Origin: Prevotellaceae bacterium
GTDB taxonomy: Bacteria; Bacteroidota; Bacteroidia; Bacteroidales; UBA932
DNA: 33,523 nt
Assembly (NCBI GenBank): GCA_031278545.1
Contig: JAITKF010000009.1
Coordinates: forward strand, 1-33,523
Direction: 5' to 3'
The notes beneath the pieces are model-generated. The model did no database searches. It had not been told where the DNA came from and worked only from the letters and a program-made list of their open reading frames with translations. Shown here piece by piece: positions 3,871-12,045 of the stretch. The first letter of the stretch is position 1. Each line of letters starts with the position of its first letter. Made by a program: the position numbers and the translations under genes.

Positions 3871-3900
3871 ACTTTCAACTTTCAACTTTCAACTTTCAAC
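3871..3900. repeat. TTTCAAC heptamer array abutting the S41 peptidase stop codon
   Basis: 30 bases of perfect 7-base period (about 4.3 copies). Its last base is the first base of the stop codon of the minus-strand peptidase gene (stop at 3900-3902), so the transcript would run straight from stop into GTTGAAA repeats. Confidence 0.85.
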
Positions 3901-5507
3901 TAATCACTGACCGTTAACAGTTCCCGTTCGTAGCGGCTCCAGTTGTTGAGTACTTCTACGGCTTTGATAAATTCCTTATCGAGGTGTTTATTGATTATTT
4001 CGTAATAAGCGCTGGAGTTCCAAAGCGTGCGGGCGATGAGGGCTTTCAGTTGCAGCCGCATGTCATTGCCGGATATTTCCAGTCCTTTCTCATCGCGTGC
4101 TATTCCCTGCGCTTCGGCGTAGGCGAGGAATTGTTCAAACAGGTCGCCGGCGACGTGGAACTGTTTGTCAAATGCGGCAACAGTTTTATAACTTTTTTCC
4201 AACCGGCTGCGGTGCGTATCAACATATTTCAACGTAAACTGGTTGAAAAGCCCGGCGCGGCTAAGGTTACTGTAATATTTGGAGTAGGAAGCCGTATCGT
4301 GCGGCATGAAAATATCGGGCATGATACCGCCGCCGCCATACACCGTCCGCTGTTTCACAAGGGTATAATATTTCAGGGAATCGGGAAAGCGGATGCTGTC
4401 GCGGCTGTAGTATTCGCCATGCACTGCGCGTTTATATAAATCGGCATAGTATTTTTCCGTTTCGCCGGCATTGTAGGGGCGTTGGATGACGCGACCGGTA
4501 GGCGTATGGTAACGGGCAACGGTGAGGCGGATTTGCGAACCGTCGGTGAGGGGCAGCAGTTGTTGCACCAGCCCTTTCCCATAGGAACGGCGACCGATAA
4601 GGATACCTCTGTCCCAATCCTGAACGCAGCCGGCAACGATTTCACTTGCCGACGCAGAGCCTTCGTCCAGCAACACTACTAAATTCCCGGTTTGGAAAAA
4701 CCCGCCTTTGCCGGACAATTCTATGGTTTTCGGGTAATGCAGCCCCTCGCTGTATACCAGCAGGCGGCCGGAGTCGAAGAATTGGTTGCACAAGTCGGCG
4801 GACGTCTTGAATATCCCGCCGCTATTGCCCCGCAGGTCGAGTATCATGGACGCCGGCGCTTTTTTGAATTTCTTTTTCAGGGCTTCGTTTATTTCGTCCA
4901 GCGTGGTTAGCGCAAAACGCCCAAGCCGGATGTACGCCATACCCGGCTGCACTTCGTAGGCGGCGTCCACGCTATGGATAGGAATTTTATCACGCACCAC
5001 CGTAAAGCGCAACGGCTGCAGAACGCCTTTGCGGACAACGGTCAGCAACACCTTTGTACCTTTCGGTCCCCGCAGGAATTTTAGCACCTGCGCATTCGTC
5101 AGCCCGACGCTGGCGATATTTTCATTATCTACGGCAATGATGCGGTCGGAGGCGCGGATGCCCACCGCCTGCGACGGACCGCCGAAGATGGGCGACACCA
5201 CCGTCAGCGTGTCGTTCAAAATATTAAATTCGATGCCCACGCCTTCAAAGTTGCCATGTAGCGATTCATTCGACGACTTGACTTCGTCGGCAGTGAGGTA
5301 GGTGGAGTGCGGGTCTAAATTTTGCAGCGTATTGATAATGGCTTTCTCTGTGAGTTTACCGATACTGGCGCTATCCATGTAATGACTGTCGATATACAGC
5401 AGCAACTGCGCAAATTTTTGATAATTTTGGGTTACTTCGGGATTGGTTTGCGCTGCCACAGGCAGGGAAAACAGCAGGACAAAGGCAAAACAAGTGATCT
5501 TTTTCAT
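3900..5507 (-). CDS. S41 family C-terminal processing peptidase (Ctp/Prc type)
   Basis: 535 residues with a signal peptide (MKKITCFAFVLLFSLPVAAQ), so a periplasmic or envelope serine protease. A helical N-terminal region (25-80) includes LDPHSTYLTADEV. A PDZ domain follows (about 85-170: EGVGIEFNILNDTLTVVSP, GIRASDRIIAVDNENI). The S41 catalytic core follows (about 190-345), with DLRGNSGG, the Ser-containing GSASASEIVAG (Ser286 by analogy with E. coli Prc) and Lys311 in SYGKGLVQ, giving the expected Ser-Lys spacing of 25. A C-terminal domain of about 190 residues extends to VSD. Members trim C-termini of envelope proteins. The gene is monocistronic and has a TAnnTTTG promoter overlapped by a palindrome. 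Confidence 0.93.
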   Translation of the reverse strand: MKKITCFAFVLLFSLPVAAQTNPEVTQNYQKFAQLLLYIDSHYMDSASIGKLTEKAIINTLQNLDPHSTYLTADEVKSSNESLHGNFEGVGIEFNILNDTLTVVSPIFGGPSQAVGIRASDRIIAVDNENIASVGLTNAQVLKFLRGPKGTKVLLTVVRKGVLQPLRFTVVRDKIPIHSVDAAYEVQPGMAYIRLGRFALTTLDEINEALKKKFKKAPASMILDLRGNSGGIFKTSADLCNQFFDSGRLLVYSEGLHYPKTIELSGKGGFFQTGNLVVLLDEGSASASEIVAGCVQDWDRGILIGRRSYGKGLVQQLLPLTDGSQIRLTVARYHTPTGRVIQRPYNAGETEKYYADLYKRAVHGEYYSRDSIRFPDSLKYYTLVKQRTVYGGGGIMPDIFMPHDTASYSKYYSNLSRAGLFNQFTLKYVDTHRSRLEKSYKTVAAFDKQFHVAGDLFEQFLAYAEAQGIARDEKGLEISGNDMRLQLKALIARTLWNSSAYYEIINKHLDKEFIKAVEVLNNWSRYERELLTVSD

Positions 5508-5607: not shown

Positions 5608-6584
5608 TCAAGTACCCACTGTCACCGACTTATTCAAGGCGGAGGAAAAAACCTTCCACGGCGAGTCAAAGTTAAGTAATTTTCTTGGTCTACGGTTAAT
5701 CTTATATTGAAATTTTAATATTTCGTCATCAGAAAAAGCATTAAAAGATGCTTTTTTAGGAATATACTGTCTGATAAGTTTGTTAGTGTATTCATTTAAT
5801 CCCCTTTCCCATGACGAATAGGGATGTGCAAAATAAAATGCTGTATCTAACAATTTTGCTATTTTTTTGTGTCATAAAATTCACTTCCATTATCGGAAGT
5901 GATAGACCATACCATTTTCTTATAAGGCAAGAGTAAGTAAAATAACTCCATAGCTAAATCTTTCGCATTTTTACCTTTTGGTAATTTTTTAATCAACAGG
6001 AAGCCTGTTTTTCGTTCTGTGACCGTTAAGATAGCTCCTTTGTTTTCTTTCCCAACGATGGTATCAATTTCCCAATCACCCACCCGTTCCCTCTTGTTAA
6101 TGATCACCGGCCGCAGGTCAATAGACACTTTATCAGGTATTACTACTTTCTTTCCCCCGACAGGTCGCTTACGATGTTTAAGCCGGTGTCGCAGGTGTGT
6201 ATAAAGTGTTCCACCCTGTCGTTTATCTTCCCGGATAAATTGATAAATCCGCTCATGGCTCACCATAGGTATAGCGTCTCGTTTGGCTTTCCCTGCAATT
6301 TGTTCCGGCGACCACTGTTCTTCGGTAAGCTCTTTAATAATCTTTTGTTTGACATGTTCGGTAAATTTTCGTTTTTTAGCAAACCGTTCTTTCCGTTCAT
6401 CGGCGTATTCCTGTGCCAGGCGTGGGGAATATCCCCGCTTGTGGCTGTTCCGCTGAAGTTCCCGGCTGAGTACTGATTTGTCCTTGCCTGTGGCAATACA
6501 GATTTCTTTTCTGGTACCTCCAGCTTCCAACATCCGGGAAATTGTGTACCTTTGTTCTTGAGTTAAATGTTTTTTTGTTTTCAT
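5608..6584 (-). CDS. IS30-family transposase, split by a -1 shift at an A7 run
   Basis: Part 1 runs from the ATG at 6584 (a TTG at 6590 is also possible) to TAG at 5859-5861. Part 2 continues in the -1 frame to TGA at 5608. Part 1 has the N-terminal helix-turn-helix region (LTQEQRYTISRMLEAGGTRK, IATGKDKSVLSRELQRN), the linker EQWSPEQIAGK and SHERIYQFI, then the DDE core with DWEIDTIVG (Asp ~176) and TSDNGSEF (Asp ~233). Part 2 supplies AHPYSSWERGLNEYTNKLIR with the catalytic Glu, plus INRRPRKLLNFDSPW. Joined by a -1 slip, the pieces read ...FYDTKK-IAKLLDT... with nothing missing, about 325 residues, normal for IS30. The junction is A-AAA-AAA followed directly by TAG. It is either a simple loss of one A or a programmed frameshift. 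Confidence 0.85.
5859..5868 (-). other. A7 slippery heptamer followed by in-frame TAG
   Basis: On the minus strand the last 0-frame codons are ACA AAA AAA TAG. This gives X-XXY-YYZ = A-AAA-AAA (5862-5868), the classic -1 slippery heptamer in the correct phase. A -1 slip continues as ATA GCA AAA and restores the rest of the transposase. I did not see a strong stimulatory stem-loop just downstream. Confidence 0.6.
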
Positions 6585-6611
6585 ATACAACTAAAATAAG
6601 ACTTTTTTCTC

Positions 6612-6749: not shown

Positions 6750-7730
6750 ATGCAAACACGTAATTTAGTATCTTTCGATTGGGCTATGAAACGGCTGCTG
6801 CGCAATAAAGCAAATTTTGCCGTACTTGAAGGCTTTTTGAGCGAATTATTGAAACGCCAAATCATCATCAAGCAGATTTTGGAGAGTGAAAGCAACCAGA
6901 AGTCGATTGAAGACAAGTTTAACCGAGTCGACGTGCTGGCTGAAGACTCTAACAAGGAATTGATGATTATTGAAGTGCAGTACAATAGTCAAGTCGATTA
7001 TTTTCTTCGGATGCTCTACGGAACAAGCAAGGTCATCACTGAACGAATCAACAAAAGTAGCCCGTATGGGGTGATTCGAAAAGTCTATTCCATCAACATC
7101 GTATATTTTGATTTGGGGCAAGGCAATGATTATATATATCATGGCAAGACCCACTTCAAGGGCTTGCATACCCATGAAACACTACAACTGTCTGAAAAGC
7201 AACGCGAAAAATTCGGATATACCGAAGCGGGCGACTTGCATCCGGAATATTATATTATAAAAGTAAATCAATTTAACGACGTGGCTAAAGATACGTTGGA
7301 CGAGTGGATTTATTTTTTAAAAAACAATGAAATTAAATCCGATTTTAAGGCGCAAGGGTTGGATTTAGCCTGTGAGGTTATGGCCTACGACCGGCTCACG
7401 GTAAAAGAACTACGCGCGTATGAACGTGCCCTCGATACCAAATGGCTCGAAGACGATATTGTGTCAACGGCCGAAGATAGGGGATTGCAACAGGGTCTTA
7501 AAAAAGGATTAAAACAGGGTCTTGAAAAGGGGTTGAAGAGAGGATTGAAAAAGGGCATGCAGCAAGGTATGCAGCAAGGCATAGAAAAGGGTGTAGAAAA
7601 AGGCATAGAAAAGGGCATGCAGCAGATCCAAATAGAAATAGCCCGGCGTATGCTATCGGAGAATGAACCGGTCGAAAAAATAATGCAGTATACCGGCTTG
7701 TCTGCTGAGCAAATAGAAAGCCTGCACTAA
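6750..7730 (+). CDS. Rpn family PD-(D/E)XK nuclease / putative transposase
   Basis: 326 residues. The N-terminal ~220 residues match the PDDEXK_2/Rpn family: SFDWAMKRLLRNKANFAVLE at the start, then NRVDVLAEDSNKELMIIEVQ, which supplies the nuclease motif D61...E75-V-Q77, then YFLRMLYGTSKVI. Rpn proteins are DNA endonucleases that promote RecA-independent recombination in E. coli; many relatives are annotated as transposases without transposition evidence. The C-terminal region (about 248-300) is a run of GL(K/Q/E)(K/Q)G-type four-residue repeats such as GLKKGLKQGLEKG, ending in an ARRMLSENEPVEKIMQYTGL helix common in this family. The gene has its own promoter and ends 13 bases before the sigma-factor frame. 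It sits beside an IS30 element, in keeping with its mobile distribution. Confidence 0.88.
   Translation: MQTRNLVSFDWAMKRLLRNKANFAVLEGFLSELLKRQIIIKQILESESNQKSIEDKFNRVDVLAEDSNKELMIIEVQYNSQVDYFLRMLYGTSKVITERINKSSPYGVIRKVYSINIVYFDLGQGNDYIYHGKTHFKGLHTHETLQLSEKQREKFGYTEAGDLHPEYYIIKVNQFNDVAKDTLDEWIYFLKNNEIKSDFKAQGLDLACEVMAYDRLTVKELRAYERALDTKWLEDDIVSTAEDRGLQQGLKKGLKQGLEKGLKRGLKKGMQQGMQQGIEKGVEKGIEKGMQQIQIEIARRMLSENEPVEKIMQYTGLSAEQIESLH
7482..7626 (+). repeat. In-frame 12-bp-unit repeats in the Rpn gene
   Basis: Degenerate 12-base units (for example GGATTGAAAAAG, GGTATGCAGCAA, GGCATAGAAAAG) encode GLKK, GMQQ and GIEK tetrapeptides about a dozen times. Since 12 is a multiple of three, slippage would change length without breaking the frame. 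Confidence 0.75.
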
Positions 7731-7743
7731 TATAAAACGAGGT

Positions 7744-8325
7744 TTGTTTTTTACAACCAAAATAACCGCCTGTTCCGATAAAGAACTATTGGCATTGTTT
7801 CGCAAAACTAAGAATGTCGACTATTTTGCCGAATTATATAGCCGCTACATTCCGTTAACCTACGGGTTGTGCCTGAATTATCTGAAGACAACTGGCGATG
7901 CGCAGGACGTGGTTATGGAGTTGTTTGAAGAAATACAACAAAAGGTGTTTCAGCATGAAGTACAGACTTTTCATACATGGCTTTACAGTGTGGTAAAAAA
8001 TCATTGTATAAAAGTACTGCGAAAAAATGACCGGCAAGTTTATGTCGCTTTCCAACCTGTATTTATGGAATCGGACAATCTTCCGGCTCTATTCAGTGAA
8101 GATAACAGGGAGGAAAATTTCCGGTCGCTCCAAAAGTGTATGGAAAAACTTCCGGAATCGCAACAAGTGAGTATAAAATTGTTTTTTATGTCCGATAAAT
8201 CGTATGCGGATATTGCCGACATAACGGGGTTCCATTTAAAAAGTGTGAAAAGCTATATCCAAAACGGTAAGCGGAATTTAAAAATATGCATGGATAATGA
8301 CAGCAAAGCGGCATCGCATCATTGA
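7744..8325 (+). CDS. ECF-type RNA polymerase sigma factor (sigma-70 family)
   Basis: 193 residues from a TTG at 7744. No in-frame ATG exists between the Rpn stop (7728-7730) and the conserved start, so TTG, or an even rarer ATA at 7732, must be used unless the gene is 5'-truncated. Region 2 spans YFAELYSRYIPLTYGLCLNYLKTTGDAQDVVMELFEEIQQKV and TFHTWLYSVVKNHCIKVLRK (about 27-100). Region 4 is LQKCMEKLPESQQVSIKLFFMSDKSYADIADITGFHLKSVKSYIQNGKRNLK (about 128-185). This is the two-region layout of extracytoplasmic-function sigma factors. The stop overlaps the next gene by 29 bases, which suggests that gene encodes its regulator. Confidence 0.88.
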   Translation: MFFTTKITACSDKELLALFRKTKNVDYFAELYSRYIPLTYGLCLNYLKTTGDAQDVVMELFEEIQQKVFQHEVQTFHTWLYSVVKNHCIKVLRKNDRQVYVAFQPVFMESDNLPALFSEDNREENFRSLQKCMEKLPESQQVSIKLFFMSDKSYADIADITGFHLKSVKSYIQNGKRNLKICMDNDSKAASHH

Positions 8326-9412
8326 GTATTTACAAGGCACGCAAAAAGGAAAAACGGCTAATCGAATAGAACGAGAAGCGCAGCAAGACCCTTTTTTGGA
8401 GGAAGCGTTTAGCGGGTACGACAAGCACGACGACAACCATGCAGCAGCTATCCTGCTCCTTCAGCAACGATTGAAAACGCAGGCGGCAAAACAGAAAAAA
8501 CCGGCATGGATATGGGCGGCAGCCGCCTGTATTGTAGTGTTAGTCGGAGCAGGGCTTCTATTGTTATTACGGCAAGCGCCCGTGGCAGACACACTCCCCG
8601 TTGCGAAGCTATTGATGACAGACACACTCCCTATCGCGAAGTTACCCGACAGGCATGAACCTGCCACCGTGCAATCTCCGCTATCAATCGAACGCAAAAG
8701 TACAATCGTGCAAAAAGAACCGGACGTTCATCTAAAACCGCCGCATCCGAATTCACCTGAAAAGGATATGTCGTCCGACGGTCATGTGACGATAATGGAG
8801 TTTGCCAAAAACGCCGTCCCCGCAGTATTGGTCGACAAATCGATGAAAGTCGCTACCGGTATTGTATCCGAAGAAGGTGCTCCGCTGGCGGGTGCGTCGG
8901 TGAGCATTAAAGGCGCGCCGACGGCCGTGTTGACGGATATGGGCGGGCATTATGCTATTCCTGTACAAGATAGCAATACGTTGGTGTTTTCTTTCATTGG
9001 TATGAATACAGAAGAAATTCCGGTGGCTGGAAAAACGACGATTGATGTTAATCTGGTCGCCGATGCAATAGAGCTGGAAGAAGTAGTAGTCGTTGGATAC
9101 GGCGTAATGAAACGTACTTCTATACCGGACACCGCCGACGAAACTGCCGTCCCGCTTATCGGCAAAAAGGCCTACCGGAATTATTTGAGACAAAGTATAC
9201 GACAGCCGTCCGATTCCTTATGCATTAAGGCGAAAGGAAAAGTAGAACTTCTATTTTATATAGACGTACAAGGAAATCCGTTCAATATTGAAATAATAAC
9301 CAGCCTGTGTCCCTCGTGCGACGAAGAAGCCATCCGGCTTATCAAAGAAGGCGGCAAATGGACGCTCAGCAAACGCCCTGTAAAGCAAACAATACGATTC
9401 CGAGGACGGTAG
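8297..9412 (+). CDS. Single-pass membrane protein: putative anti-sigma-like N-terminus, CarboxypepD-regulatory domain, TonB-C-like end
   Basis: 371 residues, start ATG at 8297 inside the sigma-factor gene. A cytoplasmic N-terminus of ~68 residues (HRIIEYLQGTQ...DPFLEEAFSGYD) precedes one membrane segment (WIWAAAACIVVLVGAGLLLLL, ~71-91). A Pro-rich linker carries a 10-residue duplication (DTLPVAKLLM/DTLPIAKLPD). Residues ~185-255 form a CarboxypepD_reg-like beta domain (TGIVSEEGAPLAGASVSIKG). It is followed by ELEEVVVVGYG, the motif that in SusC-type receptors leads into the plug. Residues ~310-371 (GKVELLFYIDVQGNPFNIEI...EEAIRLIKEGGKWTL) resemble the TonB C-terminal domain. The order suggests an inner-membrane protein reaching across the periplasm toward an outer-membrane receptor, perhaps relaying a signal to the sigma factor. 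The function is inferred. Confidence 0.75.
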   Translation: MTAKRHRIIEYLQGTQKGKTANRIEREAQQDPFLEEAFSGYDKHDDNHAAAILLLQQRLKTQAAKQKKPAWIWAAAACIVVLVGAGLLLLLRQAPVADTLPVAKLLMTDTLPIAKLPDRHEPATVQSPLSIERKSTIVQKEPDVHLKPPHPNSPEKDMSSDGHVTIMEFAKNAVPAVLVDKSMKVATGIVSEEGAPLAGASVSIKGAPTAVLTDMGGHYAIPVQDSNTLVFSFIGMNTEEIPVAGKTTIDVNLVADAIELEEVVVVGYGVMKRTSIPDTADETAVPLIGKKAYRNYLRQSIRQPSDSLCIKAKGKVELLFYIDVQGNPFNIEIITSLCPSCDEEAIRLIKEGGKWTLSKRPVKQTIRFRGR

Positions 9413-9645: not shown

Positions 9646-10641
9646 TTATCCCTGCTGTTGACTGTTGCTGTCGACTGAAAAGTGTCCGAAATCCGCCAGT
9701 GCAATAGCTGTTATCGCTTCGACTACTACCGGCAGGCGAAGGGCGAAACAGGCGTCGTGGCGGCCGGGGATGAGAAGGTCGGTCATTTGGCCGGTGGTCA
9801 TGTTGAGGCTCCGCTGTGGACGGGCGATGCTGGCTGCCGGTTTGACCGATATGCGGAAATACAGGTCATTGCCGCTGGTGATGCCGCCGTTGATACCGCC
9901 GGCGTTGTTTGTCGTGGTTGTGCCGTCGGCGGCGACGAAGCAGTCATTGCGGGTAGAGCCACGCCGTTGTGTGGCGGCAAATCCGTCGCCAAATTCAATG
10001 CCGTTGACGCCGGGAATGGCAAATGCCAATCGGCTGATATGCGATTCGACCGAGTGGAAGAACGGCTCTCCCCAGCCGATCGGCATCCGTCGCGCCGTGC
10101 AGCGTATGATACCCCCGATGGAGTCGCCTGCCGCTATGGCCTGGTCGATGGCATCGGCAATAGTTATTTGCCCACCGGCTTCTTCCAGTTCGGCTGTGAT
10201 GACTACCGGCGTCAGTATTTTTTTTGCAACGACGCCCGCCGCCACCAGCAACACCGTCAGGCGTCCCGACAGGTGTCCGCCGCCCCGCAAATCGTTAAAG
10301 CCGTTCCATTTTCTTGTAGCGGTAAAGTCGGCGTGTCCCGGACGAGGCGTGTCGCGGAATGCGGCGTAATCGTCAGCACGGGTATCGTCGTTGTCGAACA
10401 AGATGGCTACCGGTGCACCGGTTGTATGGCCATTGTAGACGCCGCCGCTCAGGTGTGGGATGTCGGCTTCGGCGCGAGCGGTAGTGCCACGGAAGCCGCT
10501 TTGCCGGCGATGCAAGTCGTGCAGGAAGTCGTCGGTGGAAAGCGGCAGCCCGGCCGGACAGCCATCGACTATAACGCCCATCCGCTCGCCATGCGATTCT
10601 CCGAAAAGACTTATTCTAAAAAGATGTCCGAAAGAATTCAT
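9646..10641 (-). CDS. aroC: Chorismate synthase
   Basis: 331 residues. It converts 5-enolpyruvylshikimate-3-phosphate to chorismate using reduced FMN, the last step of the shikimate pathway. The N-terminal signature FGHLFRISLFGESHGERMGVIVDGCPAGLP is clear, as are RRQSGFRGTTARAEAD, RPGHADFTATRKWNGFNDLRGGGHLSGRLTV and the C-terminal GRHDACFALRLPVVVEAITAIALADF. The length is about 20-30 residues below the usual ~355, with a short Gln-rich end (SNSQQQG). It reads more like the RPGHAD type found across many bacteria than the RPSHAD type I recall in Bacteroides. It follows aroA by 9 bases and is the last gene of the operon. Confidence 0.95.
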   Translation of the reverse strand: MNSFGHLFRISLFGESHGERMGVIVDGCPAGLPLSTDDFLHDLHRRQSGFRGTTARAEADIPHLSGGVYNGHTTGAPVAILFDNDDTRADDYAAFRDTPRPGHADFTATRKWNGFNDLRGGGHLSGRLTVLLVAAGVVAKKILTPVVITAELEEAGGQITIADAIDQAIAAGDSIGGIIRCTARRMPIGWGEPFFHSVESHISRLAFAIPGVNGIEFGDGFAATQRRGSTRNDCFVAADGTTTTNNAGGINGGITSGNDLYFRISVKPAASIARPQRSLNMTTGQMTDLLIPGRHDACFALRLPVVVEAITAIALADFGHFSVDSNSQQQG

Positions 10642-10650
10642 GATGTCTTG

Positions 10651-12045
10651 TTATGATTTATCCTGCTTTTCCTTTGCCAGCCGTTCTTGTTGTTCCGGTG
10701 TCAGTTGTTCCTGTGCCAGCAGTTTCAGCCGCTCCTGCTCTTTCCGAACGCTCAACTGTTCCCGCTCTTGTGTCATGTCGACTATGCGCGCCATATCTCG
10801 GGTAAAGGATGGATAAGATTTGCGGATACAGTGCATGTCGTCAATCAGTACCGGCTCTGGAATAAACAATCCGGCACAGGCGGCGGCCATTGCAATTCGA
10901 TGGTCATTGAACGAGGACACACGACCGCCGTGCAATTCTACATTCCCCGCGATGTCTCCGACGATGAGCGAGTCGTCTTGAAGCAAGACGTGCACACCCA
11001 ACGTCTGGAGCATGCTCAGCAGCGCTTCGGTGCGGTTGCTTTCCTTGAAATAAAGCCGCCGGACGCCGGTGATGCAGGAAACACCCTTACAAAAGGCCGC
11101 CAACAATGCCAGCGGCGGGAACAAATCGGGACAGTCGGACGCATCGAAGTGGAAGGCCTGCGGCTGACCGTTTCGCAGGACTATTAAGCGGTCGCCATCC
11201 CACCGGTATTTTACGCCGGCCATTTTGAGCACCTTTAAAATAGCCCTGTCCGCCTGACGGCTTTTTCTGTGCAGGCCGTCGACCTCTATGCGTCCGCCGA
11301 TAGCTCCGACCACCAGCCAGTAGGCTGCGCTACTCCAGTCGCCCTCGACTATATAGGTTTGCGGCGTATAGCGTTGCCCTCCGGGGATATGGAAGCGACT
11401 ATAATCTCTTTTATACGAGATGTGAACGCCGAAGGTCTCCAGCATTTCCAGCGTCATATCAATATACGGATGGCTGACCAGACTGTGCACTACCAGCGTC
11501 GAATCGCCGGAGAGCCGCGGCAAGGCCATCAGCAGTCCCGACAGCGTCTGCGAGCTGTGGAGCGCCGTTATTGACGCCGTGGCGGGGGTCAACAAGCCGC
11601 TCAGGTGCATCGGGAGGTTGAGGGATGCGTGCGCGGTAGCGCGTACGCCGAATGCCGCCAGCGCCTCTACCAGTTCGTCCATCGGTCGTTGCCACAAGTT
11701 GCCACTGCCGATGACTTTGACCGATGGATATGTTACCGCCGCTACCGGTGCAAATAACCGCGCACATAACGCCGACTCGCGGCAATACAATGTAGGCGTA
11801 CTTTTCCGTTGGATGGTGGCAGGCGAAATGTACCATACTTTTTCTTGCCGGACGACCTCCGCTCCCAACGCCTCGGCAATGTCTGCGGCGGCCAGTGCGT
11901 CGTCGCAATCCGACGGGTTGATGATACAACTTTCGCCCTGCGCCCCCAGAGCGGCGGCTACCGCGCGTTGCGTCATGCTTTTCGACGGCGGCGCTGTAAT
12001 CCGTGCATTGAAGGAAAATAATGTATGGAGTCTTTTGTTTTGCAT
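10651..12045 (-). CDS. aroA: 3-phosphoshikimate 1-carboxyvinyltransferase (EPSP synthase) with a charged C-terminal tail
   Basis: 464 residues. It transfers enolpyruvyl from PEP to shikimate 3-phosphate. Visible family features are APPSKSMTQRAVAAALGAQG at the N-terminus (Lys and Ser of the substrate site), SSQTLSGLLMALPRLSG, GDWSSAAYWLV, LYFKESNRTEALLSML and SSFNDHRIAMAAACAG. The enzyme core ends near SYPSFTRDMARIV at about residue 425. About 40 extra residues follow that are rich in Glu, Gln, Lys and Arg (TQEREQLSVRKEQERLKLLA, LTPEQQERLAKEKQDKS) and should form a single charged helix; typical AroA lacks this. It lies between the DAHP synthase gene (59-base gap) and aroC (9-base gap). Confidence 0.95.
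   Translation of the reverse strand: MQNKRLHTLFSFNARITAPPSKSMTQRAVAAALGAQGESCIINPSDCDDALAAADIAEALGAEVVRQEKVWYISPATIQRKSTPTLYCRESALCARLFAPVAAVTYPSVKVIGSGNLWQRPMDELVEALAAFGVRATAHASLNLPMHLSGLLTPATASITALHSSQTLSGLLMALPRLSGDSTLVVHSLVSHPYIDMTLEMLETFGVHISYKRDYSRFHIPGGQRYTPQTYIVEGDWSSAAYWLVVGAIGGRIEVDGLHRKSRQADRAILKVLKMAGVKYRWDGDRLIVLRNGQPQAFHFDASDCPDLFPPLALLAAFCKGVSCITGVRRLYFKESNRTEALLSMLQTLGVHVLLQDDSLIVGDIAGNVELHGGRVSSFNDHRIAMAAACAGLFIPEPVLIDDMHCIRKSYPSFTRDMARIVDMTQEREQLSVRKEQERLKLLAQEQLTPEQQERLAKEKQDKS

Follow-up and report, generated by a model that had tools for sequence, protein, structure and literature searches.

What is the role of a gene that begins inside an ECF sigma factor gene and encodes, in one membrane-anchored chain, a SusC-type domain, a TonB box and a TonB-like end? 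The gene in question, P0001, lies in a window of 33,523 nucleotides, i.e., the whole stretch of DNA that was analysed (Prevotellaceae bacterium, assembly GCA_031278545.1, contig JAITKF010000009.1). A sequence-only reading had proposed that the protein imitates a SusC receptor and passes a signal to the sigma factor. The features of the locus are as follows.

7744..8325, + strand: ECF sigma factor gene, TTG start, 193 aa, C-terminal end ...YIQNGKRNLKICMDNDSKAASHH
8297..8325, + strand: overlap of the sigma and anti-sigma genes, 29 nt
8297..9412, + strand: putative anti-sigma factor gene P0001, ATG start, 371 aa, stop included; carries NTE, TonB box and TonB_C
8297..8494, + strand: cytoplasmic N-terminal domain, residues 1-66 (NRIEREAQQDPFLEEAFSGY...), putative zinc-less relative of the ZAS (zf-HC2) anti-sigma domain; profile family of 69 proteins
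8504..8572, + strand: single transmembrane helix, about residues 70-92 (AWIWAAAACIVVLVGAGLLLLLR), from a hydropathy scan
8573..8848, + strand: periplasmic linker, residues 93-184, variable; the sole gap of the alignment with the copy in L011 falls here
8861..9091, + strand: NTE / CarbopepD_reg_2 domain (PF13715), residues 189-265
9074..9103, + strand: TonB box LEEVVVVGYG, residues 260-269; PWM score equal to that of SusC boxes
9161..9409, + strand: TonB C-terminal domain (TonB_C), residues 289-371, from PF03544 and a family HMM

Domain architecture of P0001

The architecture read from the sequence, namely a short cytoplasmic part, one helix, a CarboxypepD_reg domain, a VVVVGYG motif and a TonB-like end, was borne out by matches to PF13715 and PF03544, a single hydrophobic segment and the box. 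PF13715 (CarbopepD_reg_2) matched residues 189-265 with an E value of 1.8e-14 and 53.9 bits (cut-off 32.2). In the same profile search PF03544 (TonB_C) matched residues 309-366 (E 7.4e-6), and with 26.8 bits the proposed TonB-like end passed the curated cut-off of 24.6. This domain scored 92 bits against the family HMM made in this analysis, which has P0001 itself among its seeds, and its match to the NCBIfam model tonB_Cterm falls under the cut-off of that model. The top NCBIfam match of P0001 was the SusC model TIGR04056 with 92 bits, far under its full-length cut-off, and the alignment joins residues 185-276 with model positions 3-94 of 981 only, by which P0001 was ruled out as a receptor.

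Since a stretch rich in lysine and arginine precedes the helix, the N-terminus is probably inside. AlphaFold2, run with two-sequence input, gave a pLDDT of 36 for full-length P0001, a low-confidence model that places the helix at residues 71-92, and a pLDDT of 46 for residues 259-371. Pfam returned no FecR-family domain in P0001 at E up to 1, in agreement with the earlier statement that this is no standard FecR anti-sigma factor. TonB_C holds three cysteines (C309, C338 and C341; window 9221-9319), including an SLCPSCDEEA stretch common to several family members. These cysteines could form a redox-sensitive disulfide.

The overlapping sigma gene and its surroundings

Both PF04542 and PF08281 pass their cut-offs in the sigma ORF (7744-8325). 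We place its start at TTG 7744 because relatives have an in-frame xFFTxKI start of the sigma protein in common; one of them starts with GTG. The overlap with the ECF sigma gene that had been noticed before amounts to 29 nt (8297-8325). It is also kept in L046 and likely brings about translational coupling of the two genes.

The closest relative of P0001 is an 84% identical counterpart at locus L011 in a second genome of the genus. Window and L011 have the same gene order, i.e., a PDDEXK_2 gene, sigma, anti-sigma and homologues of the ORFs at window 9646-12045. Between the two copies, dN/dS was 0.28 for P0001 overall and 0.11 for the sigma gene. The values by part are rough, the compared regions being short; they range from 0.05 around the TonB box and 0.11 in the NTE to 0.32 in both the N-terminal domain and TonB_C and 0.40 in the linker. 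The overall value, together with those of NTE and box, therefore indicates a constrained gene and no chance ORF.

The PDDEXK_2 (Rpn-type) transposase gene of the window (6750-7730, + strand) has a long run of GxxKG repeats and stops 14 nt before the sigma gene. It occupies the site at which many relatives have a divergent VWA gene, and genome G008 is arranged likewise. Further upstream, an IS30-like transposase (5608-6590, - strand; assigned by reading) is split into two reading frames of 243 and 81 aa and is therefore probably a broken insertion element. It is adjoined by a PDZ/S41 protease gene (3900-5507).

The N-terminal domain marks a family paired with ECF sigma factors

The family was defined by the profile of the N-terminal domain alone (alignment A1). 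This profile matched in at least 43 of 392 genomes sampled across the phylum and in at least 45 of 198 from the order, both counts being lower bounds because scoring took the best candidates per genome only. The supposed pairing with a sigma factor was found throughout: each of the 69 family proteins extracted has an ECF sigma gene of the same type directly upstream, recognised in 66 by the ...QNGKRNLK... motif and its variants and in the last three by profile. As the search used the N-terminal domain only, this pairing was not built in. The N-terminal domain is thus the mark of a Bacteroidota-wide family. The N-terminal profile had no credible match in the PDB, and no relatives of P0001 were found in viral contigs.

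Three of the 69 members (L114, L116 and L117) carry HxxxCxxC, which replaces an ExxxxDPFL stretch at the same alignment position; the motif is absent from P0001 and most other members. Pfam assigns these three to zf-HC2, with L114 (29.3 bits, cut-off 22.2) the sole one above the cut-off, and finds no direct zf-HC2 match in P0001 itself. A profile made without the zinc members scores them at 27-31 bits, and hhalign of the zinc-less profile with the zinc members gave 97% over 69 columns. Because the HxxxCxxC members align, match zf-HC2 and score in this way, the most fitting reading of the N-terminal domain of P0001 is a class I anti-sigma domain of the ZAS type that has lost or lacks the zinc ligands. 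Other class I (ZAS-type) anti-sigma factors without zinc are known. This link to zinc-binding anti-sigma domains strongly supports an anti-sigma role, and P0001 very probably holds the sigma factor encoded by the overlapping gene inactive.

P0001 is predicted to act in the manner of class I anti-sigma factors, with a sensor that is unusual; all tested features except the zinc ligands are present. In common with the class (ZAS / zf-HC2), it has a small cytoplasmic N-terminal domain, a membrane helix and a gene right after that of an ECF sigma factor, and it is related to the class by profile via the zinc-bearing family members. It differs in lacking HxxxCxxC and in having NTE, TonB box and TonB_C as its sensor. 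FecR-type regulators (FecI/FecR/FecA) likewise link a membrane anti-sigma logic to components of the TonB system. However, the pair studied here has neither a FecR domain nor an adjoining receptor gene, and the TonB-like and receptor-like parts sit in the regulator. Dma/Reo resembles P0001 in that its anti-sigma factor, likewise from Bacteroidota, has a long part facing the envelope and is encoded behind the sigma gene, but the C-terminus of Dma is an outer-membrane beta-barrel whereas that of P0001 is TonB_C. Identity with Dma was rejected, as the N-termini did not match (hhalign probability 22.8% over 12 columns, two Dma2-like N-termini, the comparison loci having been found through DUF4943). 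Dma/Reo has a sigma partner of the ECF21 group; the sigma factor of the window is 25% identical to a Das2-like sigma factor.

The remainder of the protein varies across the family. Six members consist of the N-terminal domain and a C-terminal membrane helix only (117-121 aa) and several others end in TPRs, from which it follows that the anti-sigma module stays the same and the part in the envelope is exchanged. With Pfam at E up to 0.01, TonB_C was found in 43 of the 69 members and CarbopepD_reg in 22; the TonB_C count rises to 54 with the family HMM, which was seeded from the same proteins. Along the sigma tree the periplasmic part was swapped freely, with 24 changes.

The TonB box lies beside the TonB C-terminal domain

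The TonB box is the handle for powering outer-membrane transport. In the SusC protein Bt1763, the VDEVVV element after the NTE is a TonB box, as proven by mutation (PMC7782687). P0001 resembles SusC/RagA (Gray et al. 2021, PMC7782687) in that a PF13715 domain is followed by a TonB box. It differs in having no plug or 22-strand barrel, in its inner-membrane anchor and in the TonB_C that comes later in the same chain.

With a search matrix built from 21 SusC boxes, the box was found 9-44 aa before TonB_C in 19 of 21 members with an NTE (L061 and L062 assigned by eye). Eight further members without a recognisable NTE keep a box 15-41 aa before TonB_C, with linkers of 139-290 aa, and represent eight separate branches of the sigma factor tree. 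The motif is absent from all 15 members that lack TonB_C (Fisher p 2e-4 for a box only with TonB_C). It is also missing from about half of the TonB_C-bearing members, and several copies are degenerate.

Two readings remain, i.e., that the box is retained as TonB_C uses it, or that it is a remnant of repeated NTE loss. Members with a box but no NTE occur singly and scattered, so that their box could be what is left of a decaying element, and the degenerate copies favour decay in those lineages. The constraint on the window's own gene, in turn, favours use of the box. For P0001, we judge the chances that TonB_C reads a box to be about even.

M56/BlaR1-type proteins of Bacteroidota are also inner-membrane proteins with TonB_C at the end and, in some, an NTE, but have an M56 peptidase instead of the anti-sigma domain. 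The box was found in 0 of 29 of them, although twelve have TonB_C, and they were rejected as carriers of the same cassette. One M56 peptidase protein with NTE and TonB_C (676 aa, L217:11658-13685) adjoins a VWA/sigma/anti-sigma locus.

A VWA protein as candidate counterpart

Many relatives have a partner gene that is divergent from the sigma gene and encodes a secreted protein of 613-737 aa with NTE, TonB box, vWF_A, VWA and YfbK_C. This partner occurs at 17 of 25 box-type loci versus 4 of 21 others (Fisher p 0.001, uncorrected for relatedness). The 25 include the window, L200 and L203, all three without an adjoining VWA gene. The single YfbK protein that a search found in the genome of the window is encoded on contig C120, away from the window, and has the box LDEVVVVGYGIQRK.

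Within a locus, the anti-sigma box and the VWA box resemble each other more than boxes in shuffled pairs do (p 3.5e-4), and also when shuffled inside class/order groups (p 0.009), which does not fully remove shared ancestry. Paired NTEs are likewise more alike than shuffled ones (p 5e-5), the own partner ranking first in 7 of 13. Outside the anti-sigma family, the nearest NTE belongs to a VWA protein in 13 of 13 cases, with 21 SusC proteins compared. For the NTE of P0001, the best outside match is the VWA protein of its own genome, by the small margin of 87 bits versus 81 for the top SusC protein. The idea that P0001 imitates a SusC receptor therefore needs correction, since the nearest match of its NTE lies in a YfbK-like VWA protein, which most box-bearing relatives encode beside the sigma gene. 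As judged from these comparisons, the VWA protein appears to be the better candidate counterpart than SusC. That it is the ligand of TonB_C in P0001 we hold only tentatively, at slightly under even chances.

Part of the matching may have another origin. Gene conversion between anti-sigma and VWA genes is visible at L091/L214. A 61-column segment with 67% identity is common to the linker of the anti-sigma factor and the VWA protein of L214, indicating that sequence moved between the genes and that conversion can explain part of the matching. The likeness of NTE and box within a locus could hence arise from gene conversion, not co-selection.

In five other genomes of the class (L265, L266, L269, L273 and L276), a YfbK/VWA gene stands behind another kind of ECF sigma/anti-sigma pair and has the same orientation. 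This looks like a second, independent link between VWA and ECF genes and suggests that the link is older or was made twice. At L289:2007-3830 and L290:2599-4443, divergent NTE proteins of 608-615 aa without a VWA profile match take the position of the VWA partner. TonB and inner-membrane-tethered vWA force transducers (PMC12204202) share with this system the TonB_C fold and the YfbK-like vWA fold of the partner protein; P0001 differs from TonB in having none of the TonB-type helix and spacer features. The text of PMC12204202 mentions neither 'sigma' nor 'anti-sigma'. In the literature, we found no account of anti-sigma factors that carry TonB_C, and none that links YfbK with ECF; an earlier mention in ECF classification or Dma1 work is possible.

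Fusions to complete TonB in sister genomes

In four sister genomes (G004, G005, G008 and G033) the anti-sigma domain is joined to a complete TonB, with a sigma gene directly upstream (loci L048, L049, L051 and L057, the last being G008:C140:4046-5071). The anti-sigma domain of L057 is 52% identical to residues 6-71 of P0001. Residues 91-351 of this fusion, the one that was compared, are 61% identical over 262 aa to the TonB that the window's genome encodes on contig C110, which has a proline-rich spacer and ExbB/ExbD-like neighbours (assigned by reading the sequence). A second TonB-type gene (frames of 271-325 aa) on the opposite strand adjoins the fusion in 4 of 4 genomes. The fusions thus indicate that a TonB-type periplasmic part was repeatedly chosen for this anti-sigma family. 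TonB-like binding by the TonB_C of P0001 is plausible and is supported by this joining of the same N-terminus to a full TonB.

A model and its alternatives

The model that we prefer, with a probability somewhat below one half, is that P0001 is an anti-sigma factor and uses its TonB-type domain to read a box. This box would most likely belong to the VWA partner, and the box of P0001 itself would compete with it in cis. Sigma binding, box binding, the direction and trigger of signalling and the proteolysis for release are steps that we infer. The zinc-less ZAS-type domain (residues 1-66) would hold the sigma factor in the cytoplasm, and the periplasmic TonB_C would be the sensor, gripping a TonB box. 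The input would most likely be the box of the secreted YfbK-like VWA protein, and the anti-sigma factor's own NTE and box might serve as a competing or resting-state ligand in cis. Changed occupancy of the box, or a pull on it, would then release the sigma factor, probably through regulated proteolysis. It counts against the VWA protein in this model that its gene does not adjoin in the window and is absent from several box-type loci, and that five other genomes have a similar VWA gene next to another sigma/anti-sigma type.

An unlikely alternative, though the one that survives best, is that TonB_C binds the boxes of loaded SusC-type receptors and so senses receptor traffic, the VWA gene being merely a member of the regulon. 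The SusC type of box and NTE in P0001 would fit this, as would the sister genomes in which its anti-sigma domain is joined to complete TonB, and the many SusC-like proteins in this genome (own-genome paralogues being counted by search). However, it is the VWA gene and not a receptor gene that is conserved beside the module, and the NTEs match VWA proteins above SusC proteins, although for P0001 itself only by 87 versus 81 bits.

The free swapping of the periplasmic part on the sigma tree, with its 24 changes, and the presence of TonB_C in box-less M56/BlaR1-type proteins would also suit TonB_C and NTE as generic modules for envelope interaction (dimerisation or cell-wall contact), with no TonB-box logic and only the anti-sigma part of importance. 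A box that is sited beside TonB_C, kept without an NTE and matched to the box of the partner makes this improbable.

Even less probable is that TonB-ExbBD captures and pulls the anti-sigma factor's own box, the force opening the periplasmic part for proteolysis and TonB_C masking the box at rest. The very strong constraint on the box (dN/dS 0.05), its short distance to TonB_C and a TonB gene adjoining ExbB/ExbD-like genes in the genome are in keeping with such pulling, but about half of the TonB_C-bearing members have no box and the masking is without structural support.

Finally, that P0001 is a specialised TonB energising transport and merely co-expressed with the sigma factor is highly improbable in spite of its TonB_C and the complete TonB fusions in sister genomes, as P0001 has no proline-rich spacer, no histidine in its membrane helix and no adjoining ExbB/ExbD, whereas the TonB on C110 has the spacer and such neighbours; identity with a transport TonB was ruled out on the absence of a TonB-type helix, spacer and ExbB/ExbD neighbours.

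Extended to the phylum, the preferred model of box reading by an anti-sigma factor becomes more speculative, and we consider it rather doubtful in this wider form. It would amount to a phylum-wide system in which contact between TonB box and TonB domain serves as a switch and not for transport. A secreted YfbK-like VWA protein would present its box to the TonB-type domain of an anti-sigma factor that itself has a matching box; a complete TonB would have replaced the switch in some lineages, making the energy transducer the anti-sigma factor.

If true, the model would mean that the TonB box serves Bacteroidota in signalling as well, with an anti-sigma factor as its reader. The three-gene module of VWA, ECF sigma and anti-sigma genes, which is uncharacterised and occurs in several families, would thereby gain a function, and a role for YfbK-like proteins would be suggested. 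The anti-sigma/TonB fusions would form a direct link between transport energisation and transcription. In the gut-type bacterium studied here, P0001 may permit sensing of the state of the envelope, and such envelope-state sensing would be directly testable in cultured relatives.
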